Below are positions 50,995 through 64,000 of a DNA stretch of 64,000 nucleotides, piece by piece. The stretch is from assembly GCF_033344935.1 (NCBI RefSeq), contig NZ_JAWPMM010000001.1:1350001-1414000 (forward strand), given 5' to 3'. The notes under the pieces are model-generated. The model worked only from the letters and a program-made list of their open reading frames with translations. It did no database searches and was not told where the DNA came from. The translations under genes were made by a program, and so were the position numbers. Each line of letters opens with the position of its first letter. The first letter of the stretch is position 1. Source of the stretch: Reichenbachiella sp. Lineage in GTDB: Bacteria; Bacteroidota; Bacteroidia; Cytophagales; Cyclobacteriaceae.

Positions 50995-52776
50995 TTGACC
51001 TTGAGCGAAATATTCATTAGCTATATTCCAGAAGACAAACGCCGGGCCCGCCAATTGGCAGAGGTGCTCGACGAGTTTGGCTGGTCGGTTTGGTGGGAGT
51101 CTGCCATTGCTGATGACGAACATTTTGACGCTCAAATCCAATCTGCTTTGAAAGGCGCAGATTGTATCATTGTACTCTGGTCTCCGAATGCCATCAATAA
51201 TGAAATCATTTTGGAGCAGGCTCAGCTAGGGGTGAAGAAGAAAAATCTGGTTTCTCTGACCTACGACGAGGTACAGAAGGAGCACCCCTTACCATCAGAT
51301 AACTATACCAATCTGTCGCATTGGAATGGTGATACTGCCGATAAGAACATTCGAATTCTGTTAAGCGATATTTATGACCTGATTGGTCATCCGCCACAAA
51401 AAACCAGAGATAAGACATTTAGGAATCTGGTCACCTTTGTGTCTGTTATGCTTTTGGTCGTATGGAGTACTTTTATTTTGTCCATTCAGTATAAAAATAA
51501 AACCCAGGAAGCCAGGGACTGGGAAATGTACCTATCTGAAAACAAAAGCGAAGGGTACAAGGCATATTTAAAACTCTACCCAGAGGGAAAACACGTTCGA
51601 ACGGCTGCATTCAAAGTAGATAGTCTGCACGAGGCTGAAAGTTGGGAAAAGGCACTAATCGCTAATTCAGTGGCAGTTTTGGAAGCCTACATCCAGGAAA
51701 ACCCTAAGGGGACGTATAAGGATGCGGCTTTTGCCCGAATCGCTGAACTGAAGGATGAAGCAGCCTGGCAGGAAGCCAGTGAAGAAAACACGGTGGTAAG
51801 TTACAAGGTGTACCTCAGGCTTTCGCCTAATGGCAAGTTTGCCAACGAAGCTGAAAAAATCATTACCGAACGCACGAGACCCAAAGTCGTAGCTAAGGCA
51901 AAACCAGTGGAGCCTAGTTATCTGCTACAAACCTTCTCTGCACCCAAAGAAGTGCTGAGTGTGGCTGTGGCACCTAATGGCCGACGTATTCTCACCAAGG
52001 GCTGGGACAATACCGCCTGGCTCTGGGATCTGAATGGTAACCTGATCGAAGAACTCAAAGGGCACACCGACTGGTTGACCTCTGTCGCTTTTTCACCCAA
52101 TGGTAATCGTATGGCTACTGGCTCTTGGGATAAAACGGCCAAATTGTATGATGTCAATGGACGTATGCTTCGTGAATTCAACGGACACACGTTTCATGTG
52201 AGCGATGTGACTTTCTCTCCTGATGGAGAATATCTGGCGACGGCTTCCTTCGACAAAACAGCCAGATTGTATAAACTGGATGGCACTTTCGTGCAATCTT
52301 TTCAAGGACACAGAGAGTGGGTCAACGCAGTAGCCTTCTCACCAGATGGCAAACATATACTGACAGCTTCCAATGATCATACCGCTCGCATGTGGGACAT
52401 GAAGGGCAATATGGTCGCTGAGTTTTCTGGCCACATTCATTGGGTGACTTCCGTGGCTTTTTCTCCAGATGGTAAGTTTATCATTACTGGTTCTAAGGAC
52501 AAGACGGCCAGAATCTGGAGACTGAAAGACCGTAAAAACAAGAAGCTTATCGGTCATACCAAACCTGTCAATGCAGTGGCCTTCTCTCCGGATGGCCAAA
52601 AGGTAGTCACCGCATCAGCCGATCACACGGCTATCCTTTGGACCCTCAATGGCAAAGAGCTCCGAAGATACACCAAACACAAAGGCCAAATCAATGATGT
52701 GGCTTTTACCCCAGATGGTAGCAAAATCCTAACCGGTTCCAGCGATCGTACGGCTAGGCTTTGGGAGGTGCAGTAA
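50995..52776 (+). CDS. TIR domain, transmembrane helix and seven-blade WD40 protein
   Basis: A 593-aa protein. The TIR-like domain is residues 1-135 (EIFISYIPEDKRRARQLAEV, GWSVWWESAIADDEHFDAQI, IIVLWSPNAINNE). A membrane helix follows at 144-165, then three short helical repeats (about 170-300, each with W..A and AY..YL...P.G). Seven WD40 repeats (310-593) close the chain, enough for a full propeller. The position of the catalytic Glu of TIR NADases appears to be Gln75, so it may be a scaffold (inference from motif alignment). The start is a TTG at 50995 or 51001; no ATG is available. A role in defence or signalling is possible but unproven. Confidence 0.85.
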   Translation: MTLSEIFISYIPEDKRRARQLAEVLDEFGWSVWWESAIADDEHFDAQIQSALKGADCIIVLWSPNAINNEIILEQAQLGVKKKNLVSLTYDEVQKEHPLPSDNYTNLSHWNGDTADKNIRILLSDIYDLIGHPPQKTRDKTFRNLVTFVSVMLLVVWSTFILSIQYKNKTQEARDWEMYLSENKSEGYKAYLKLYPEGKHVRTAAFKVDSLHEAESWEKALIANSVAVLEAYIQENPKGTYKDAAFARIAELKDEAAWQEASEENTVVSYKVYLRLSPNGKFANEAEKIITERTRPKVVAKAKPVEPSYLLQTFSAPKEVLSVAVAPNGRRILTKGWDNTAWLWDLNGNLIEELKGHTDWLTSVAFSPNGNRMATGSWDKTAKLYDVNGRMLREFNGHTFHVSDVTFSPDGEYLATASFDKTARLYKLDGTFVQSFQGHREWVNAVAFSPDGKHILTASNDHTARMWDMKGNMVAEFSGHIHWVTSVAFSPDGKFIITGSKDKTARIWRLKDRKNKKLIGHTKPVNAVAFSPDGQKVVTASADHTAILWTLNGKELRRYTKHKGQINDVAFTPDGSKILTGSSDRTARLWEVQ

Positions 52777-52911: not shown

Positions 52912-55815
52912 TTAGCTGCTCGGTGGTACATAATGTCCCGACAGTTCTTCCGACGAACCGAAGAGTGCAAGATTAATTTGTACTGTTCCGCCCTCGCACA
53001 AATTTAATCGCAAAGGTGTTGCTTCATGCCCATACTCGGCAATATAAAGGGTCACCCCATATTTTGCTACACCCGCCGGAAGGGTTATGTTGATTTTGTC
53101 AATTAGTTTTTTAATATCTACCCAATCAACATGCTGATCAAATGTGAGACCGACTGCCGCTGCGGCTGCTTCTAATCGAGCCTTCTCTATTCCCTGATGA
53201 ATCAAACTGTCCCACAAGCACTCCCCACCATCTCGAATACCAGCTGTATTGGCACGAAAAATGAACCCACCGGCATGAATGGCATCATCATGGCTGAGCT
53301 CTGCTCTGCCAGCCGTGATGGAGGGACTCCCTCCTTGCGCTTGTTTTCCTCCAACAATGGCAGTTGCTGTTTCGCTACTTTGGGAAGTTGCTGCTGCCGA
53401 TCCTTCATTTTGACACATAAACATAAACTGATGAATGATTTCCTGATGAATCTTCATCAGTTGCCCGCGATTTTCAAAAATAAACCACCTCATTAATCCG
53501 TGGTCGAGAAGTTTGTTGATTTCATCGGGCGTTTCTGCTTTCATAGTGGCAGGAGCTTGTGCTGGTTCGATGTCATGTGGATTCATCAATGCCCGACAAA
53601 GTGGGATCTTGATTTGGTCCGCATCTACTTTCACATGTTGCCGGGACATACCTGAACTACTGATCATTACAGCGAGTTTCGTTATGTAGGTTTGCTCTTC
53701 CTCAAACATTGCCTCAATCTGCGAAGCTAAAAAAGCTCGAACGGAATGTGTTTTACTGGCGGGTTTCACCTGAAAACGGCCACTATCTGTAGGTGTGGCC
53801 AGATTTGGTCTGTAGGTAGTTACTTTTTCTTTTTCATGGACCTGGCGAATAGTGTTTCTTAGGTCAACTCCTTCTCGTTTTGCCGTTCCCCAAGAAGGTA
53901 TGCGGCGACTGTGAGTATCCTCCATTCCGGTCATCATGCTCAAAGCAGTTGGTTTGCCTGGTCTTGCAGCCAAGAAAACCATATTTGGTTCGGTAGGATA
54001 AATCAATTCTGAATTGATGGAATGAATCATCATACGAAACTGCGCATCCAACTGATTGGCCAACAACGTGAGTCTATGTTCGGGAATGTTCATATCCAAA
54101 TCACCACCTCCATGTGCTGTTTTTTCATCAAATCGGTATCCTCCCACCATCAGTTCTGGATGACCGGCTTTTTCCAGTTCATCCGAATAACCCTGTAGCA
54201 AAGTTCTTTTAACTCCTTTTTGCTGTTCGGAGGTACGAAATGAGGGTGCATCCGCATCCGAGTTAAAAATATACACGTGCTTGCCATGTGCATGAAATTC
54301 ATCCACACATCTACGATTTTCCGGAGACTCTAGTAATTTGGTTCGAAGCAACCCGTAGGGAATTGCGTTGCTAGCTCCTCCTATGAAGCTCTTTTCATAT
54401 TGATGAACACGCTGGTTAAAAACTACTGAAGCCTCTGCTAACAGCCTATCATTATCTGCCGCCTTTTCCTTAATGAACGCCAATTGCTCATTCATACACT
54501 CCTTGACTTCATCCAGTCCCTGATCCTCTCCCCAATTCATCCCCCAGGTATACCGAATAACCGTAACGGGAAACGGCACTACGGAGGGAAGTTTGCATGC
54601 AAGTAGCTGCTCAGCTCCCGTACCATGAACAGACTCTAACAGATTCAAACCAATAACCATAGCAAAAGGAATTTCAGGCGTCACCAATTCGCTGTATCGC
54701 TTAAGCACAGCAGCAAGGTCGGTTGGCGTGGTGATCAAATTTGCCACATATGCAATTCTATCGGTTCGTGCAGCGGCTGCTTGTAGATTTCCTGCATGTT
54801 CCGGTGGTCCCACAGATTTAATCAAAGCGGGATTTGGTTTGTGATGTACCACCTTACACATATGTCGAAACCTGCGCATCGCTTCTGTCGCCAGACTATC
54901 GGGAGTTATAGCCGCAATGGCGGCGGCGGCAGCAGTCTCAGCCGATGCCTGTCTAATTTGCTTTACCTCTGCCTTCAGCCTGGCTTCATCTTCAGGAGAC
55001 ATTGATCCGGCTCTCTTTCCAATCTGAACGTTAATTAAAGTGTCTGCCATGGAAGCAGGCAACCTCATTTTTCTCGCCTCAGCTTCAGCCCAAGTCACTA
55101 ACTCTTGCGCTGTGGACCAGGCAGGTGTGCTTCCACCACCTCCGCCTCCTTTTTTTTCGCTTTTTTTCTTCGGTGGCATCAACTGGGCTACACTTGAACC
55201 CTGAGGTGCTGTTTTGCTAGTCAGATGGCCAGCAGTATTGTTTTCGTTGGATAAATTCGAAGCCTTTTCTCCCATGACATCCGCCTCTTTTTCCAAACCA
55301 GTATCATTATTAATATGCACACCACTTTTCGTTTGAATTGTGGGCTTCACTCTTCCTTGCTTTTGTTGAACTACATGCCAAGCTTCATGAGGGAGATGTT
55401 TTTTTTGACCAGGCCCTAAATGGATGTCAGTTCCCTGAGCGAAAGCATGCGCTTGTAGTTGGGCAGGTTTTGCAGAGTTAATATGCACTTTTACATCACT
55501 CATGGAGTAACCCGAAAGCTTTTCTATTCCTATTTTTAAATTATCAGGTAAACCAGTATTGTTCTTATTTTTTTGGATTGGTTGTCGTTGCCTACTGGAT
55601 TGGTTGTCAGTTGTCGCTTGGAATTGAGTCACTTTATTCTTAGCGATCTCTTGCAGTTTCCTTTGAGCTACAGCTTCAGGTCTATTATCCGTAAACTGAA
55701 AAGTAGGCTCTCTAACGTGCTTCACTTTAGAATCGGCTGCAGGCACCGATTGGCGTTTGTTCTCTTTAGTATTGTCAGCGTAAGTATTCAAATATACTTT
55801 TTGCTTTATACCCAA
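52912..55815 (-). CDS. eCIS-core (DUF4157) effector with OTU-like C-terminus
   Basis: A large protein (967 aa at most). The N-terminus has FQFTDNRPEAVAQRKLQ (about 39-55), and DUF4157 follows (about 88-160) with the HExxH-type LPHEAWHVVQQ (143-147). This is the mark of cargo for extracellular contractile injection systems. A Gly6 linker (223-228) leads to a large middle part with NSDAD (518-522), a possible DxD. The last 105 residues look like an OTU-type cysteine protease: GGECLWDSL (Cys866) and GHYV (His961) just before the end. Start uncertain: TTG 55815 or TTG 55791 (giving an N-terminus like other family members). No ATG is available. No eCIS sheath or tube genes are in the window. Confidence 0.8.
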   Translation of the reverse strand: MGIKQKVYLNTYADNTKENKRQSVPAADSKVKHVREPTFQFTDNRPEAVAQRKLQEIAKNKVTQFQATTDNQSSRQRQPIQKNKNNTGLPDNLKIGIEKLSGYSMSDVKVHINSAKPAQLQAHAFAQGTDIHLGPGQKKHLPHEAWHVVQQKQGRVKPTIQTKSGVHINNDTGLEKEADVMGEKASNLSNENNTAGHLTSKTAPQGSSVAQLMPPKKKSEKKGGGGGGSTPAWSTAQELVTWAEAEARKMRLPASMADTLINVQIGKRAGSMSPEDEARLKAEVKQIRQASAETAAAAAIAAITPDSLATEAMRRFRHMCKVVHHKPNPALIKSVGPPEHAGNLQAAAARTDRIAYVANLITTPTDLAAVLKRYSELVTPEIPFAMVIGLNLLESVHGTGAEQLLACKLPSVVPFPVTVIRYTWGMNWGEDQGLDEVKECMNEQLAFIKEKAADNDRLLAEASVVFNQRVHQYEKSFIGGASNAIPYGLLRTKLLESPENRRCVDEFHAHGKHVYIFNSDADAPSFRTSEQQKGVKRTLLQGYSDELEKAGHPELMVGGYRFDEKTAHGGGDLDMNIPEHRLTLLANQLDAQFRMMIHSINSELIYPTEPNMVFLAARPGKPTALSMMTGMEDTHSRRIPSWGTAKREGVDLRNTIRQVHEKEKVTTYRPNLATPTDSGRFQVKPASKTHSVRAFLASQIEAMFEEEQTYITKLAVMISSSGMSRQHVKVDADQIKIPLCRALMNPHDIEPAQAPATMKAETPDEINKLLDHGLMRWFIFENRGQLMKIHQEIIHQFMFMCQNEGSAAATSQSSETATAIVGGKQAQGGSPSITAGRAELSHDDAIHAGGFIFRANTAGIRDGGECLWDSLIHQGIEKARLEAAAAAVGLTFDQHVDWVDIKKLIDKINITLPAGVAKYGVTLYIAEYGHEATPLRLNLCEGGTVQINLALFGSSEELSGHYVPPSS

Positions 55816-57871: not shown

Positions 57872-57910
57872 CTTGGTCGTAGAACCGCTGGCGCTTAATC
57901 TACGACCAAG
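57872..57910. repeat. Perfect 12-bp inverted repeat next to the intron remnant
   Basis: CTTGGTCGTAGA and TCTACGACCAAG with a 15-nt loop containing GAACCGC. A shorter palindrome (GGGCG GAC GCCC) lies just before it, at about 57851-57862. It adjoins the intron 3' remnant, where domain V should be. It may be a rearranged domain V or a separate repeat. Confidence 0.6.
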
Positions 57911-57964
57911 GGGTGGTGTGAGAGGCACACTGGTGGTCGAAAGACCGTCAGCCGTCTACTCGAT
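57882..57964 (+). mobile_element. 3' remnant of a group IIC intron
   Basis: GGTGGTGTGAGAGG (from 57912) is the conserved 3' part of domain V. A domain VI hairpin with GAAA loop follows (CTGGTGGTC/GACCGTCAG), then the 3' terminus CCGTCTACTCGAT, ending at 57964. GAACCGC at 57882 may be the domain V 5' strand. All upstream intron parts are missing. Its 3' junction sits in the last codons of the small membrane-protein gene. Confidence 0.75.
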
Positions 57965-58357
57965 TGTGTGCTCGTTATCTTTTGCTTTTAATACTATCCA
58001 AATTAGAATTGATAAAGCCAGTGTGAGTATTGAAAAGGATTTTTCTAAAGCCGTTTCTGCGAATAAATTTCCAATTGTATTCAACCCAAAAAGGATGAGA
58101 AATATCCAGAGTATTACGTTCACAACACTTAAACGAATTATCGGTTTTAGGTAGTTTCCCTTGATGAGCAGTGTAGTGCCTAACAAGAGATTAATTACGA
58201 TAGAAATCAATTCGAAAACGTACATTTCAGAATCAGTTTTCAAGCGCCCTCCCCAAGTTATTTCGTAAGGAATTATTTTAAAGAGAATACTAAAGTGAAA
58301 TATAGTTAAAGCAACTACTATGGATAGTATTATTTTTATTGCGGTTCCTGATTTCAT
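57956..58357 (-). CDS. Small four-helix membrane protein; stop codon supplied by intron remnant
   Basis: A 133-aa hypothetical protein with four predicted membrane helices (IILSIVVALTIFHFSILF, VFELISIVINLLLGTTLLI, LSVVNVILWIFLILFGL, FSILTLALSILIWIVL). No family recognised. ATG 58357 is preferred; an upstream ATG at 58402 would add 15 residues. The last two residues (Ile-Glu) and the TAG stop lie inside the group II intron remnant, so the original C-terminus was altered by the insertion. It is the last gene of the cassette-like array. Confidence 0.65.
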   Translation of the reverse strand: MKSGTAIKIILSIVVALTIFHFSILFKIIPYEITWGGRLKTDSEMYVFELISIVINLLLGTTLLIKGNYLKPIIRLSVVNVILWIFLILFGLNTIGNLFAETALEKSFSILTLALSILIWIVLKAKDNEHTIE

Positions 58358-58457
58358 TATTCTAATTGTTTCATTTCTATGACACACTTTCAGTATATGC
58401 ATAGTAGATGATTGCGGGCTTCAAACCTATCAAACTGAAACGATTTTCAAGCGGGCT

Positions 58458-58505
58458 ACAACCGTTGAGTTTACTACTATTTCGCCTATTTTGTATATAC
58501 ATTGT
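58458..58505 (-). repeat. attC-like site, interrupted by intron copy 1
   Basis: With the intron removed (58506-59171), the exons join to give CATTGT|TATATGG. The resulting GTTAT box faces an ACAAC box at 58458-58462, about 50 bp apart, with partly complementary inner arms. It lies nine bases after the parE stop codon. This is the weakest of the three attC-like sites. Further left, GCGGGCT is repeated at 58414 and 58451. Confidence 0.35.
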
Positions 58506-59171
58506 GTGTGCCCAGCATGGGCATCTGGTATCGAAGATACCAAATTATTCCAGAGGGTGTAAGTCCCTTGTGTGCGGGAGTCGTGTCCCGAAGCACTAGC
58601 AAGTCGCAAGCTGGTTTACCGTGAGGTATGCAGTGAAGGAAGCGAGACTGCAAAGCCCGGTTCCAACGAATAGGACCGGGTCGCCGGGCGACTGGATACA
58701 GAGGCTGTACAGGTCGGATGAGGTAGCACATCATACTGACGTCCAAAGGGTGGGTAACCACCAAGTACCCTTCAGGTAGATCCAGTGGATATTGGGTGAA
58801 GGAATATGCTCTTATCTGGGGAGATCTCGGATTCCACGAGTTGGGAACTGAGAAGTCAGCCGAGGTCATAGTACCAATTAGCAAAGAGCTGTCACCGCAA
58901 AGGATTAGACGGAGACCTCACAAGATTGGGAAGGACCGAACGTATTGTGAAGCGAAAATTCGCATAGGAATACCTTGGTATAGCCTATGCTTAAAAGTAG
59001 CGGAAAGATGTGTCGGTGTAAAGAGCGATACATTATGCTTTACGAACCGCCGTATACCAGAACCGCTTGGCCTGTCCTGACGAAGGAAGGATCTGGTGGT
59101 GTGCCCCGAAGGGATGCCTATGGCAAGAGGCGCACCCCATCAGTTATCGCTGGTGGGGCCGTCTACTCGAT
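58506..59171 (+). mobile_element. ORF-less group IIC intron, copy 1
   Basis: A 666-bp element. The 5' end GTGTGCCCAGCATGGGCATC matches the start of group IIC introns such as O.i.I1 (Oceanobacillus iheyensis). Domain I features follow (AGGGTGTAAGTCCC, GAAGGAAGCGAGACTGCAA), with GGGGAGATCTC and GAAGTCAGCCGAGGTCATAG typical of this group. GAACCGCCGTATACC is the 5' strand of domain V. The 3' end is GTCTACTCGAT. No reverse transcriptase is encoded, so mobility would need a protein in trans. The 3' strand of domain V is atypical (see findings). It runs opposite to the genes around it. Confidence 0.85.
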
Positions 59172-59180
59172 TATATGGAT

Positions 59181-59477
59181 TTATTTCAGGTGACGCTTCA
59201 AATCCATTCTTTCGTGTAGGATTCTTACTACTTCAATTTCATCTGCTGAGGCCTCATGATAAAAAATAATATGTTTGTTAATACTGTAGCCTAAAACTTT
59301 GGATGATATTTCCTCATATGTTTTGCCAAGGCTGGGTTTGTTCGAAATGTCTATACAAGCTGACTTAATTGCTTGATAGTATTTATCTGCTTGGTTTTCA
59401 GACCATGTTTCAGAGGTGTATTCCCAAATATCGGTAAGGTCATTGATGGCTTCCTGCCTCAAAACGAGTCTAGCCAT
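59181..59477 (-). CDS. parE: ParE/RelE-type toxin
   Basis: A 98-aa ParE-superfamily toxin: LRQEAINDLTDIWEYTSETW at the N-terminus, YYQAIKSACIDISNKPSLGKTY and the closing beta strands HIIFYHEASADEIEVVRILHER. ParE toxins act on DNA gyrase; RelE relatives cut mRNA. The assignment to ParE rests on pairing with a ParD-type antitoxin. It overlaps the antitoxin gene by 8 bp. The stop codon is nine bases from the 3' end of intron copy 1. Confidence 0.9.
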   Translation of the reverse strand: MARLVLRQEAINDLTDIWEYTSETWSENQADKYYQAIKSACIDISNKPSLGKTYEEISSKVLGYSINKHIIFYHEASADEIEVVRILHERMDLKRHLK

Positions 59478-59721
59478 TTTTTACTCGATTAGCTTTCAGT
59501 GACGATAGGTGTTGATCAAAGTCAAAGCTTTCTACTCTTGGGCTCTCCAGCCCTTTTTGAATAGCCGACTTTAGGGCGTTGACTTTTCTTTCTTCTTCTT
59601 CAAGTAGCCTGAGTCCAGCTCGAATAACTTCACTCACGTTCTTGTATCTACCGTTTGAAATGCTATGTTGAACAAATTCATCGAAATAGTTCCCTAGCGA
59701 TATGGATGTGTTCTTACTCAT
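59470..59721 (-). CDS. parD: ParD-type ribbon-helix-helix antitoxin
   Basis: An 83-aa antitoxin: the RHH DNA-binding part (MSKNTSISLGNYFDEFVQ, then GRYKNVSEVIRAGLRLLEEEE) is followed by a C-terminal toxin-binding tail. ATG 59721 is preferred over a TTG at 59736. It is upstream of and overlaps the toxin gene, the usual ParD-ParE order. It probably represses its own operon at the palindrome just upstream. Confidence 0.9.
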   Translation of the reverse strand: MSKNTSISLGNYFDEFVQHSISNGRYKNVSEVIRAGLRLLEEEERKVNALKSAIQKGLESPRVESFDFDQHLSSLKANRVKNG

Positions 59722-59742
59722 ACTCAAAAGTACCAATAAATG

Positions 59743-59753
59743 GTATAATATAC
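59743..59753. promoter_or_regulatory. Palindrome upstream of parD, candidate autoregulatory site
   Basis: GTATA-A-TATAC is a perfect 11-bp palindrome around one central base, 21 bp upstream of the parD ATG. RHH antitoxins often bind such short repeats. Confidence 0.4.
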
Positions 59754-59770
59754 AAGATCACTCCTTCCAT

Positions 59771-59881
59771 ATAACGATCAGCTAAAACTCGTAGGCTGAC
59801 CATTTGTTAATTTCATTAAAAATATCGGATTCAAATGCTCTTTGCAAGTAGCTCACAAGCCTATGGATTTTTAGCATCTGT
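59771..59881 (-). repeat. attC-like imperfect palindrome, interrupted at its end by intron copy 2
   Basis: With the intron removed, an ATAAC box (59771-59775) faces a GTTGT box formed at the exon junction (CTGT|TGTAGAG), about 114 bp apart. The arms pair over a long distance: GAT(CA)GCTAAAA and TAGGCT on the left with AGCCTA and TTTTTAGCATC on the right, leaving a two-base bulge. An inner CATTTG/CAAATG stem is also present. Terminal boxes, long arms and extrahelical bases are the pattern of integron attC sites. It follows the stop codon of the 208-aa membrane-protein gene by a few bases. Confidence 0.5.
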
Positions 59882-60556
59882 GTGTGCCCGGCATGGGCAT
59901 CTGGTATCTAAGATACCAAAATTATTCCAGAGGGTGCGGAGAAATCCAAGTCCCTTGTGTGCGGGAGTCGTGTCCCGAAGCACTAGCAAGTCGCAAGCTG
60001 GTTTACCGTGAGGTTTACACTGAAGGAAGCGAGACTGCAAAGCCCGGTTCCAACGAACAGGACCGGGTCGCCGGGCGACTGGATACAGAGGCCGGTAGGA
60101 TCGGATGAGGTAGCACATCATACTGACGTCCAAAGGGTGAGTAACCACCAAGTACCTTGCAGGTAGATCCAGTGGATATTGGGTGAAGGAATATGCTCTT
60201 ACCTGGGGAGATCTCGGATTCCACGAGTTGGGACTGAGAAGTCAGCCGAGGTCATAGTACCAATTAGCAAAGAGCTGTCACCGCAAAGGATTAGACGGAG
60301 ACCTCACAAGATTGGGAAGGACCGAACGTATTGTGAAGCGAAAATTCGCATAGGAATACCTTGGTATAGCCTATGCTTAAAAGTAGCGGAAAGATGTGTC
60401 GGTGTAAAGAGCGATACATTATGCTTTACGAACCGCCGTATACCAGAACCGCTTGGCCTGTCCTGACGAAGGAAGGATCTGGTGGTGTGCCCTGAAGTGA
60501 TGCCTATGGCAAGAGACGCACCCCATCAGTTATCGCTGGTGGGGCGTCTACTCGAT
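59882..60556 (+). mobile_element. ORF-less group IIC intron, copy 2
   Basis: A 675-bp element nearly identical to copy 1 (differences by eye: a 9-base longer AGGGTGCGGAGAAATCC segment, a few substitutions in domain I, and several single-base changes near the 3' end). 5' end GTGTGCCCGGCATGGGCATC, 3' end GTCTACTCGAT. It has the same atypical domain V as copy 1, so both derive from one altered ancestor. No reverse transcriptase ORF. Same orientation as copy 1; the two flank the parDE locus as direct repeats. Confidence 0.85.
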
Positions 60557-60568
60557 TGTAGAGTGTTT

Positions 60569-61195
60569 TTATTGAAGTCCTTTAAGACTGGAAAGTATTT
60601 TTATCCATTCACTGCCAATCAAATAGTTCATTAGACACAAAAGAGCGGAAATGAATAAAATCAGTTGTAGAGGAAGGTATTTGAAAACTCTTGATTTTAG
60701 ATACTTATTAGTCTTAATCCGATCTTCAAATTTCTTTATAGTGGGAATTAGGCTTAATATGAGGCTGAAAAAAGTAATTAGTACAAAGACTATCAATGCA
60801 ATAAATGTTAAATCAAAGCTTTCAGCTTGATAAACATCAATTCCAAAAGGCCCACCGCCCTCAACAAGTTTTCGAGGTTGCATGTTTAAGAATACTATTC
60901 CTCCATGTCCAGTTACGCTATTCCATATATTTTCTTTTTCGGATATATCTACATTACTTATAGTGGATCTTAGTTGTAACGTGAAAAATAGATGAATAAC
61001 CGTCCAAACAACTATGGCCAAAGAATAATACAAAATCGGAATCTTGACGCCCAAAAGCTTAATTGGGATTACTTCATCCTCGTTTTCTTGATGTGTTGGT
61101 AAGAATTTCTTGATGATGACTATAAAACCAAGAAATATACCGGACAGAATTGTCCAGTTTATTAAGCTAGTGACAAAAAGAACTGATTTATCCAT
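60569..61195 (-). CDS. Hypothetical four-helix membrane protein
   Basis: A 208-aa protein with four hydrophobic helices (WTILSGIFLGFIVIIKKF, YYSLAIVVWTVIHLFF, FIALIVFVLITFFSLIL, LPLQLILFISALLCLM) and an extracytoplasmic loop of about 40 residues between helices 2 and 3. No family recognised. Overlaps the preceding 75-aa gene by 8 bp, so the two form one unit. The stop codon is 12 bases from the 3' end of intron copy 2. Confidence 0.7.
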   Translation of the reverse strand: MDKSVLFVTSLINWTILSGIFLGFIVIIKKFLPTHQENEDEVIPIKLLGVKIPILYYSLAIVVWTVIHLFFTLQLRSTISNVDISEKENIWNSVTGHGGIVFLNMQPRKLVEGGGPFGIDVYQAESFDLTFIALIVFVLITFFSLILSLIPTIKKFEDRIKTNKYLKSRVFKYLPLQLILFISALLCLMNYLIGSEWIKILSSLKGLQ

Positions 61196-61415
61196 ATGTT
61201 GGTTCTAATCCATAAAGAAAACGAATAATTACTATTAGAAGCCAAATTTCACCTGCCAAAAGAGCCAAACCTAGGAGCCTTTCTCCAAAACTTGATTCTG
61301 AACTGAATAGAAGGTTCAATGGGAAAAATATGATTGGAATAATTCCGCTTAAGATCGGAATTCCAAATATTATTATTAACAAAATAGTTAAAACAACTCC
61401 CATATCTTTTAACAA
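61188..61415 (-). CDS. Hypothetical small membrane protein
   Basis: A 75-aa protein with two to three hydrophobic helices (VVLTILLIIIFGIPILSGIIP, LLGLALLAGEIWLLIVIIRFL). No family recognised. It starts with ATG 61415, 29 bp after the attC-like palindrome, and overlaps the next gene by 8 bp. Together the pair looks like one mobile-cassette unit. Confidence 0.65.
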   Translation of the reverse strand: MLKDMGVVLTILLIIIFGIPILSGIIPIIFFPLNLLFSSESSFGERLLGLALLAGEIWLLIVIIRFLYGLEPTYG

Positions 61416-61442
61416 TTATTGATTGTAGTTTGCATCAATACT

Positions 61443-61503
61443 CTACAACGGCTCCGCTATGAAACGTGTCCCGAAGGGCATGTTTTTATAGCGATTGTTG
61501 TGC
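61443..61503 (-). repeat. Empty attC-like palindrome after the helicase gene
   Basis: ACAAC (61445-61449) pairs with GTTGT (61497-61501). Inside these, CGCTAT (61455-61460) pairs with ATAGCG (61488-61493), and AAAC..CCC GAA GGG..GTTT forms the apex. The spacers are 5 and 3 bases. No T tract follows on the minus strand, so it is a poor terminator. The right box reads ATTGT|TGTG, which equals the 5' exon of intron copy 1 plus the 3' exon of the remnant. It is therefore an unoccupied version of the intron target. Confidence 0.5.
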
Positions 61504-61525
61504 CTTCCTTGTTTTATTTATTTGT

Positions 61526-64000
61526 TTAGAAAAGAATCGAACTGATTTCATCATATTCTATTTCTTCTTTGTTTAATCTACTCTTTAATCTCTTAATATT
61601 GATTTCAATGAGTTTGTCACCTTCAATTTTTAAGCAGTCTTTATATTTCTTAAAAATATAGTCTGCTGTGTGTCTTGAAAGTCCATAATTCTGTAAAGCG
61701 ATTACGATAGTGTTTTGTGTTCCATATTCTAAAAATGTTGCCCAGTTTACACCTGCATTATCTTCTCCCAAAATTTCTACAAGCATGGCATAGTAGTTAT
61801 TGAAGTATTTTTCGAAAAGAAATCGAAGAACACTTTCAATATCATCGATGATGTTACCAATAAGAACATTGATATGTTGTTTACTATTGTCGAACACCTC
61901 ATAAGTTGGTTTCCCATTTTTATAACCGACCATCAATGTGCTGCCTTTGCGGATGTAATAAGCAATAGATTCATTGATGATTTGGCTCAATGATATTCCA
62001 TTGATCCATTGATTCATCAGGACAGCATAATAGTCAAGTTGCTTTTCAGATTTGAATCGTTTTTCCTCTGTTGACCAATGAAACATTGAGTAGCATTTAT
62101 GAAGCCATTCTTGGCATATTTCATAAGTAACCCTGCTTGGCAATTTGATGGCAGATGGATTCTTGGCTTGCTTTTTCAAAGCAATAAAGACCTCATTCTG
62201 AATATTTAGTTTGATTGAATTATTAGTATTTAATACGCTAGAAGGAACTTCTACTTTGGTTGTTTTCTCTTTTGCTAATTCAATTATTGCTTCCTTATTT
62301 TCAGCAATCAGTTTTTGGATAATTTCACTTCTATAGTTACTTCGTTGAATCTCAAGAGTATCTATATTGATGATATTAGCTATATATTCTAAAATCTCTT
62401 TCATTATACCTGACTCAAATTTTACATCAGGTTTTTCTTGAAGAATTTGTTCAATCTTCTTTAGTCTTTTATCAATATAACTTTCAACTGAGGGGTTCAG
62501 TTTAATATCGATTTCTTTTGCCAAAAGATCCTCATGTTTTTTCCACTCTTTTTCAGTTTCTTTCAGACAGATAATATTTCCGGATAATTCTAATTTTAAG
62601 CGACCTGCTCTGCCAGCTAGATTCCAAAAGTCGATTGGCTTAAAAAATGAATTTCCATGTACCCTGTTATTTAGGATAAAAACATTTTTAGCAGGCAGAT
62701 TTACACCCTCTAAAAGGGTCGAAGTACAAAACACGAAGTTGATTTCACGCTCTTTAAAAAGTCCTTCAACTTTGTTTCTTATTATTTGCGGAAGATTACC
62801 ATAGTGATAGCCAATCCCCCTATTCAGAAACTCGCCCAAGAAGTAATCTTTATGGATGTAAGATTTGATTTGGCGAATAACCTTTTTTACGGTTCTGGAA
62901 ACTTCAATCTGTTTGTCTTTATTTCGCTCAAATAGTTTGGAAGCTTTATCAACTGCATCAAATCTTGAACTACAATACACAATGTTGCTTTCATCGTCAC
63001 CTATTGCAGAAAGCAAATCATAAATCGTTTCTGACTTTGTTACGATTAAGGGTTCAAATAAATAATGACCATCATCCAAGTAATGGGTGACCTTCTTTTC
63101 AACCAAATCAACAAAAAACAGATTTTGTGAAACTGGTGTTTCTATGGTTCTAAAAAATTGCTTTTCGTCTTTCTTAAATAATTTCAGAAAGACTTCAGGA
63201 TTCGAAACATTAGGAGAAGAGAAATATAAATTAAGGTTGGGATTTCTCCTTAGTGCCTTTGAAATGGCTGAATATGCGGTTACTGCTCGACTGTCTTTTT
63301 CTGCTGCCAGTTTATGCGCTTCATCTATGAATAAATAAGCAATGGGAGGATTATTTTTTTGGGATAGATAACTCAAAAGCCTTTCAGGAGTTAGCACAAA
63401 AATATAGTGATGTTCTGTTGATGGTAACTCAGAAACATTGGAGTTGGTAACTACAGAGTAGTTGTAATGATCCAAAACCTCTTTGAGTTCTTTGTTGAGG
63501 TCTATAGAAAACTGGTTAATCAAAGCCCTAGTCGGAACCATGATGACAATATTCTCAGGCGGTTTGTTGCCTACTACTTTTCTAATAAAGGATTTAATGA
63601 TAAACGATTTGCCCATTGAAGTCGGGCCTGAAAAGCTAAAATGTTTCGAGCCGCTAATCTTCTTATATAGTTCAAATTGTGAATCGGTAAAAATTAAATC
63701 TTCGGTATCGGGAACGGCTTGTATAAACTCCTTGACCTTCTTTTCAAGTTCCCTGTCAAAGGGTAATTCAGAACTGTTGTTTTCATTCTGCAAAAACTCA
63801 ATTCCGGGAAAGTTGCCCAATTTTGCCAATACAGAATGTGAGAAGGTCTGGTAATAAGGATTTGCTTTGTAATCCTCATTGAGCAGGGTGATAAGTTGGT
63901 AGGCTTTGTTTCTTGCTTTTGGGTTTTTGGAATTTGAAAGTATATCGGCAAAGCGAAGCGTGTCATTCAATTCCTTTTCGGTCAATTTTATACTTCTACC
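61526..64000 (-). CDS. DEAD/DEAH-box Ski2-like helicase, HamB/AbpB-type candidate (5' end beyond window)
   Basis: At least 825 codons; the frame stays open to the window edge and a TTG at 63985 is the only start in view, so the N-terminus is uncertain. SF2 helicase motifs: GPTSMGKS (Walker A, about 120-127 from that TTG), FIDEAHKL (DEAH, 221-224), SSPNVSN (motif III), STLLEGVNLPAK (motif V) and LAGRAGRL (motif VI). GVNLPA and AGRAGR mark the Ski2-like group. A helicase of this type with a DUF1837 partner upstream is the Hachiman/AbpAB phage-defence layout. The partner would lie just outside the window, so the name is a hypothesis. It is the first visible unit of the cassette-like array. Confidence 0.75.
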   Translation of the reverse strand, partial: GRSIKLTEKELNDTLRFADILSNSKNPKARNKAYQLITLLNEDYKANPYYQTFSHSVLAKLGNFPGIEFLQNENNSSELPFDRELEKKVKEFIQAVPDTEDLIFTDSQFELYKKISGSKHFSFSGPTSMGKSFIIKSFIRKVVGNKPPENIVIMVPTRALINQFSIDLNKELKEVLDHYNYSVVTNSNVSELPSTEHHYIFVLTPERLLSYLSQKNNPPIAYLFIDEAHKLAAEKDSRAVTAYSAISKALRRNPNLNLYFSSPNVSNPEVFLKLFKKDEKQFFRTIETPVSQNLFFVDLVEKKVTHYLDDGHYLFEPLIVTKSETIYDLLSAIGDDESNIVYCSSRFDAVDKASKLFERNKDKQIEVSRTVKKVIRQIKSYIHKDYFLGEFLNRGIGYHYGNLPQIIRNKVEGLFKEREINFVFCTSTLLEGVNLPAKNVFILNNRVHGNSFFKPIDFWNLAGRAGRLKLELSGNIICLKETEKEWKKHEDLLAKEIDIKLNPSVESYIDKRLKKIEQILQEKPDVKFESGIMKEILEYIANIINIDTLEIQRSNYRSEIIQKLIAENKEAIIELAKEKTTKVEVPSSVLNTNNSIKLNIQNEVFIALKKQAKNPSAIKLPSRVTYEICQEWLHKCYSMFHWSTEEKRFKSEKQLDYYAVLMNQWINGISLSQIINESIAYYIRKGSTLMVGYKNGKPTYEVFDNSKQHINVLIGNIIDDIESVLRFLFEKYFNNYYAMLVEILGEDNAGVNWATFLEYGTQNTIVIALQNYGLSRHTADYIFKKYKDCLKIEGDKLIEINIKRLKSRLNKEEIEYDEISSILF

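Follow-up and report, generated by a model that had tools for sequence, protein, structure and literature searches.

The closest described relatives of the locus analysed here are chromosomal integrons, clusters of attC sites lacking integron integrases (CALINs), and the group IIC introns that insert into attC sites. For chromosomal integrons, the Bacteroidota are among the phyla listed in the available part of PMC8618304. The additional domain (I2) of the integron integrase IntI is called necessary for integron recombination in the available part of PMC9668308, according to which archaeal IntI have one too, and what is available of PMC7790495 names the lack of intermediates for an IntI ancestor without I2. 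Group IIC-attC introns lie on the attC bottom strand at TTGT/T (a slash marks the junction throughout), opposite to the genes, and also occur in CALINs, according to the accessible portion of PMC7923331. Integron-like tyrosine recombinases are treated in PMC8138268, which in its available part does not link them to cassette arrays, and are represented by the NCBIfam entry NF040815 (‘site-specific tyrosine recombinase/integron integrase’). Here we analyse a 64,000-nucleotide stretch (the window, C1:1350001-1414000) of the single-contig, 4.88 Mb genome of a Reichenbachiella sp., and in it an array of minus-strand genes that runs from 57956 to about 66.8 kb, beyond the right window end (the window array). 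Sequence comparisons make it probable that its cassettes form a satellite array of an integron-like system without I2, that a recombinase encoded at a second array elsewhere in the genome (array 1) is the likely enzyme, and that the attC sites have been invaded by group IIC introns.

The initial annotation had proposed a cassette-like array with attC-like palindromes, all of its units from 57956 to 64000 lying on the minus strand. The open reading frame (ORF) list agrees, and the array continues right of the window: rightwards from 57956 it holds genes for a 148-aa protein, parDE, a pair of 75- and 208-aa proteins, hamB, hamA, a methyltransferase and a lipoprotein, followed by a 135-aa gene and then plus-strand chromosome (Table 1). 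AAC...GTT hairpins are visible by eye after units of the array. Two covariance models of attC were built, both without sequence of the organism’s own genome. R1 represents 15 attC from other classes of the phylum, each no farther than 20 kb from an IntI gene; two of 25 candidates were dropped, and near copies and one misaligned site were then removed. Two of these sites (L243) look like the R2 type, and the units on which they stand point towards their IntI. R2 is an alignment of 34 attC-like targets bearing intron copies in other Bacteroidota, chosen by hand from 39 that remained of 117 pattern matches after filtering on stem, AAC and length; the five left out were two short sites, two near copies and one from Verrucomicrobiota. 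An AAC stands within 11 nt of the hairpin in 65 of the 117 pattern matches (20.3 expected), and 14 of the 15 predicted pairs in the R2 training set change on both sides.

Run unfiltered on 11 kb, R2 gave 23 matches, of which the best five are the five predicted sites, in the order B, E, A, C and D (E-values 8.5e-18, 1.3e-7, 1.8e-5, 7.8e-5 and 0.65). All are on the plus, or bottom, strand, and those at E and D stop precisely at intron junctions. Default filters on 124 kb retained B, E and C plus one match at E 2.4. Of 12 unfiltered R1 matches in 11 kb, those at sites A, C, E and B rank highest, all on the minus (top) strand, with A reaching 15.8 bits (E 0.047). As in canonical integrons, the sites have R and L boxes and a bottom strand that folds, site D being weak in this respect. 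The annotation’s reading of an empty fourth site as ATTGT/TGTG holds, with the junction between 61498 and 61499. Three other ways of finding attC were set aside. A generic palindrome scanner was too weak (5 matches at threshold, 4.9 on shuffles); a motif derived from sites A, B and C is circular, although it gave three matches in 110 kb and no match in 40 shuffles; and its relaxed form gave 5 matches against a shuffled mean of 1.98 and maximum of 7.

Array 1 lies 383 kb left of the window array, behind an IntI-like recombinase gene at C1:1024212-1025132. On the whole genome R2 gave 10 matches, at least five of them within 30 kb of this gene, and in the region read nine attC follow the recombinase, on one strand throughout. 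The lipoprotein cassette of the window array recurs in array 1 together with its attC, site C. BLAST aligns the two copies at 99.5% over 802 columns, running beyond the cassette end; compared base by base, they share 787 bp with zero mismatches and no common base before the start. The shared part begins with TTACCC, at G/TT; the bases that precede it are ...ACAAG in the window array but ...GATCGT in array 1 (where the T run is one base longer). It ends at ...GAGCG/TTA, three bases beyond G/TT. These exact ends correspond to the G/TT joining of canonical integrons. Array 1 also contains two copies of a 157-aa cassette (96.4% identical), and its cargo includes a gene for type IIG restriction-modification (836 bits). 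On the strand opposite to the cassettes, array 1 further encodes a 737-aa protein that has type II methyltransferase matches (L295:6549-8762, minus). Far from both arrays, three further attC (L315, L316 and L317; C1:2075827, 3115990 and 1840891) match at E 3.3e-16 or better, each directly after the stop of a gene and on the strand expected.

The array-1 recombinase is a 306-aa tyrosine recombinase that scores 209 bits against the IntI profile TIGR02249 (cut-off 265), leaving model positions 177-240 unmatched, and 218.9 against NF040815, narrowly under 220. Among five members of its family that were scanned, four pass NF040815 but miss TIGR02249, and the fifth, our own, misses both. Between two fixed motifs it has 65 residues, like 14 of the 15 family rows (the remaining row has 70), compared with 107 in 10 of 11 IntI rows and 106 in the IntI of a relative, G032; it is thus 42 residues shorter there than the IntI rows and lacks I2. 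The organism’s XerD and XerC have 73 and 69 residues in this interval. The solved IntI4 structure aligns to the array-1 recombinase in two parts flanking the missing stretch. The C-terminal YTHV...SPLD of IntI is kept in it and in the I2-less family, and is absent from XerC and XerD of the same genome. A tree of 37 rows, built without the IntI of G032 and with long branches flagged, places IntI in one clade (100/99) and the I2-less rows outside it, and therefore loss of I2 within the sampled IntI is not favoured. Descent of the I2-less recombinases from an I2-less ancestor is possible on these grounds, and they might represent extant relatives of the ancestor, without I2, from which IntI arose.

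The link between recombinase and attC recurs in related genomes. Within a close-relative set of 59 genomes that includes our own, R2 sites occur in 50, and IntI above the cut-off in one, G032; across 395 genomes of the phylum, R2 matches at E <= 1e-6 occur in 172 and IntI above the cut-off in 105. The conserved stretches of the G032 protein (G032:C13:43538-44470; L058, L069, L070) look degenerate by eye; followed as a lead, this gene yielded no convincing attC around it with the palindrome scanner. Seventeen genomes, our own among them, were picked for closer study. In 14, an intact recombinase of the family (at least 42% identical to ours) stands in the same stretch as attC, and in 13 of these 14 loci the attC lie behind the recombinase gene and the cassettes are co-directed with it, unlike in canonical integrons; in G009 the gene is divergent. 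G001 and G037 have a single R2 match each beside the recombinase. The three other genomes have only short recombinase frames near the sites (G007, G050) or recombinases at 34-35% identity (G019).

In the structure of the sites, a second difference from canonical integrons appeared. An alignment of 53 attC (E <= 1e-6, 19 loci, L300 omitted), which are not mutually independent, was fitted to a covariance model. One stem position is G.T in all 53, with the adjoining pairs changing on both sides in 20 and 16 sequences, and the same position is G.T in 29 of the 34 R2 training sites. An extra base between the outer and inner stem (column 18) is absent from 40 of the 53 and present in 13; seven have one in column 23. 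In the set of sites near IntI (A2), a base stands in column 17 in 15 of 15 under the structure used here. A G.T pair on the bottom strand is an A.C mismatch on the top strand, and therefore could mark the strand; we suggest that it does so in attC of this type in place of extrahelical bases. On balance we lean towards a widespread kind of integron in the Bacteroidia, in which an I2-less, IntI-like recombinase is upstream of and co-directed with its cassettes and the attC strand is marked by an invariant G.T pair and not by extrahelical bases.

At several loci a dyad and a GTT motif stand behind the recombinase stop, and a similar element lies beside the 135-aa gene, at the start of the window array; these short elements are putative attI sites. 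The paired elements score 51 in our genome (shuffled maximum 46) and 90 in the relative G004 (shuffled maximum 43), with none of 300 shuffles as high in either case. The entry element of our genome and the attI-like element of G004 match at chance level, 71 of 300 shuffles scoring as high. The same anchors that border our variable region, the 135-aa gene (83%) and a gene for a WD40-like protein (87%), flank 7.2 kb of other genes in G004. The latter anchor, on the left, encodes 593 aa in our window (50995-52776, plus), in which WD40-like repeats can be seen by eye; its TIR-type PADLOC match is weak. A transposase-like gene, which we take to be of the IS110 type, lies on the other strand within the G004 variable region (L228:5640-6659, minus).

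Introns at GT/T were the other main element of the initial annotation, which had counted three of group IIC, opposite to the genes and on the attC bottom strand. Orientation and strand are borne out by the junctions (ATTGT/T for intron 1, CTGT/T for intron 2) and by the strand of the model matches; of the three, two are complete copies and the third is a 3' remnant without a detected 5' end. Introns 1 and 2 are 95% identical and each exceeds the gathering score of Rfam group II models, RF02001 matching these two alone in the whole genome. Rfam gives no class, and from the intron ends we take them to be group IIC. The remnant (53-54 nt) has no Rfam match; it belongs to an intron family other than that of introns 1 and 2, is 87-89% identical to intron 3' ends of congeners and ends at 57964 with the shared end GTCTACTCGAT. 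The TTGT/T insertion on the bottom strand of attC, opposite to the genes, is that of group IIC-attC introns; unlike the known examples, these introns have a Bacteroidota host and no maturase ORF, and no GIIM (maturase) domain was found in the whole genome, which has two reverse-transcriptase matches elsewhere. Maturases are present in 15 of the 59 genomes of the close-relative set. The annotation had known introns in this orientation at attC only from Proteobacteria, which fits the literature as far as its available parts go, but copies with the same 5' end occur in many Bacteroidota. The 5' end pattern (records L101-L217) is also seen in Verrucomicrobiota, Clostridia and Zetaproteobacteria, often close to contig ends. 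In the available open-access literature without preprints, which is weak evidence, there is no report of group IIC introns in Bacteroidota attC or of I2-less integrases with cassette arrays in this phylum.

Taken together, genes would move as units ending in attC that are joined at G/TT. We infer that the array-1 recombinase does the joining: it would act on the attI-like element that follows its own gene and also, in trans, on the similar element beside the fixed 135-aa gene. Introns 1 and 2 would have been inserted later, at GT/T of the folded attC bottom strand, and a third insertion would have left the 3' remnant; this order of events is reconstructed from the present sequences. The array has a single cassette orientation, AAC...GTT ends and a spacer plus stem in its attC, and, at array 1, a recombinase at one end, all as in a canonical chromosomal integron. 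With at least two attC and no adjoining integrase gene, the window array by itself is a CALIN; unlike one, it begins at an attI-like element and has a cassette in common with array 1. The annotation’s sedentary chromosomal integron can therefore be upheld only for a satellite array that has no integrase of its own, because the likely enzyme is encoded 383 kb to the left and lacks the additional domain. An integrase had been expected to the right, where the search for intI found none: the nearest tyrosine recombinase (PF00589) on that side is at C1:2138k, more than 700 kb off, and a TIGR02249 profile search of the whole genome found no integron integrase above the family cut-off. The annotation had also stated that a lack of attC, and of any integrase or further array in the genome, would speak against it; attC matches and a second array are present, though no canonical IntI.

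Several observations weigh against our reading. Site D scores at noise level (8.4 bits, with 8.1 for the sixth R2 match), and model support is lacking for the sites that follow the 148-aa and 135-aa units. R1 gives zero matches with default filters, and its unfiltered matches other than A score near the best of a 27.5 kb control; only site A stands out in R1, because that control reaches 11.6 bits. Comparison with relatives cuts both ways: site B is the intron-free form of a site that in L166, from an uncultured flavobacterium, is occupied by an intron 5' end (112 of 125 positions identical), but the syntenic locus of G004, with its other genes, has no R2 match and no convincing R1 match between the anchors. 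Similarity between the attI-like elements of our own genome is modest, and the attI-like elements of our genome and of G004 show little resemblance (score 34, shuffled maximum 36). The I2-less rows do not resolve as one clade in the 37-row tree, and a second recombinase of the I2-less family in our genome (387 aa; L314, C1:2119500-2139499) has no R2 match in the 20 kb read there. The 17 genomes described above were picked where recombinase and R2 matches looked close. Finally, R2 sites and canonical IntI occur in common genomes in other classes, and therefore R2 sites alone are no proof of an I2-less enzyme.

That last co-occurrence, together with the frequency of above-cut-off IntI in the phylum, is what an ordinary but dead CALIN would lead one to expect, its cassettes having been acquired either from bacteria that have canonical IntI or by means of an IntI that later disappeared, and the array-1 recombinase serving another function; G032, with its degenerate-looking IntI, shows that one close relative does have such a gene. 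We regard this explanation as unlikely. In our own class, none of the 63 genomes that by our count have R2 sites (our own included) is among the 107 genomes of the phylum set with an IntI match, an I2-less recombinase stands at one end of attC in 14 genomes with near-constant geometry, and the 787 bp shared without mismatch suggest that the cassette either moved recently within this genome or reached both arrays from a common recent source.

Very unlikely, in our view, is that no integron is involved and that genes with terminator-like hairpins, targeted by group IIC introns, were assembled in some other way. IIC-attC introns are reported to retain terminator targeting (PMC7923331, in its available part), and of 16 intron 3' ends, 15 are found at -40..60 nt relative to the stop of an ORF on the other strand. 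Against a terminator origin, the R-box pairs are C-G in all 53 sites and A-T in 52 of them, and 14 of 17 pairs vary on both sides; empty hairpins, hairpins in arrays and hairpins at either end of the shared cassette are all observed. Several mobile elements make use of Xer enzymes, and Xer-type recombinases are present in this genome, so that XerC/XerD of the host might move the cassettes with the I2-less recombinase as a passenger. We give this still less credence: the Xer genes (C1:4326k and 964k) are distant from both arrays, and their products lack the IntI-type YTHV...SPLD that the I2-less family keeps. A satellite array served by the array-1 recombinase is the reading we retain.

The cargo of the window array includes a Hachiman operon in which hamA adjoins hamB, as in Hachiman systems generally; unlike these, the operon here forms one cassette, followed by attC site A. 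The annotated 133-aa membrane protein stands if an internal start is used, but the ORF list gives 148 aa; the protein has no Pfam or PADLOC match. To the left of the array, a 967-aa protein with an extracellular contractile injection system (eCIS) core domain (PF13699) is encoded at 52912-55815 (minus) and is unmatched in the 39 kb of G004 compared.

Table 1. Features of the window array (positions in the window, except where prefixed C1; aa, amino acids; nt, nucleotides)
Feature	Position	Strand	Basis
3' remnant of third intron, 5'-truncated	57911..57964	+	at 3' end of 148-aa unit
Cassette gene, 148 aa (133 aa from internal start)	57956..58402	-	membrane protein by eye; stop codon inside intron remnant
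attC site E, after parDE, split by intron 1 at ATTGT/T	58380..58505, resumes 59172	+ (bottom)	R2 36.9 bits; R1 third of 12
Group IIC intron 1, 666 nt, without maturase ORF	58506..59171	+	Rfam RF02001 and RF01998; between GT and T
parE of parDE cassette	59181..59477	-	PF05016 62.6 bits
parD of parDE cassette	59470..59736	-	PF03693 89.4 bits
attC site D, after 75+208-aa unit, split by intron 2 at CTGT/T	59769..59881, resumes 60557	+ (bottom)	R2 fifth best; fold of joined flanks
Group IIC intron 2, 675 nt, without maturase ORF	59882..60556	+	Rfam group II models; between GT and T
Cassette gene, 208 aa	60569..61195	-	ORF; no Pfam match
Cassette gene, 75 aa	61188..61415	-	ORF; no Pfam match
Empty attC site A, after hamB	61443..61503	+ (bottom)	R2 27.8 bits; R1 best of 12; fold
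hamB of Hachiman operon	61526..64000	-	PADLOC HamB1 1055 bits
hamA, right of window	C1:1414099-1415010		HamA1 374.9 bits

Searches for IntI that rely on the additional domain would likely miss arrays of this kind. The introns hit the same attC sites independently, and can therefore be regarded as natural probes of folded attC. The genes carried include defence genes, namely Hachiman and type IIG restriction-modification, and if our reading is true a large cassette pool opens up, given R2 sites in 50 of the 59 genomes of the close set. Should cassettes indeed be moved by I2-less enzymes, natural proteins would make the origin of integrons testable.

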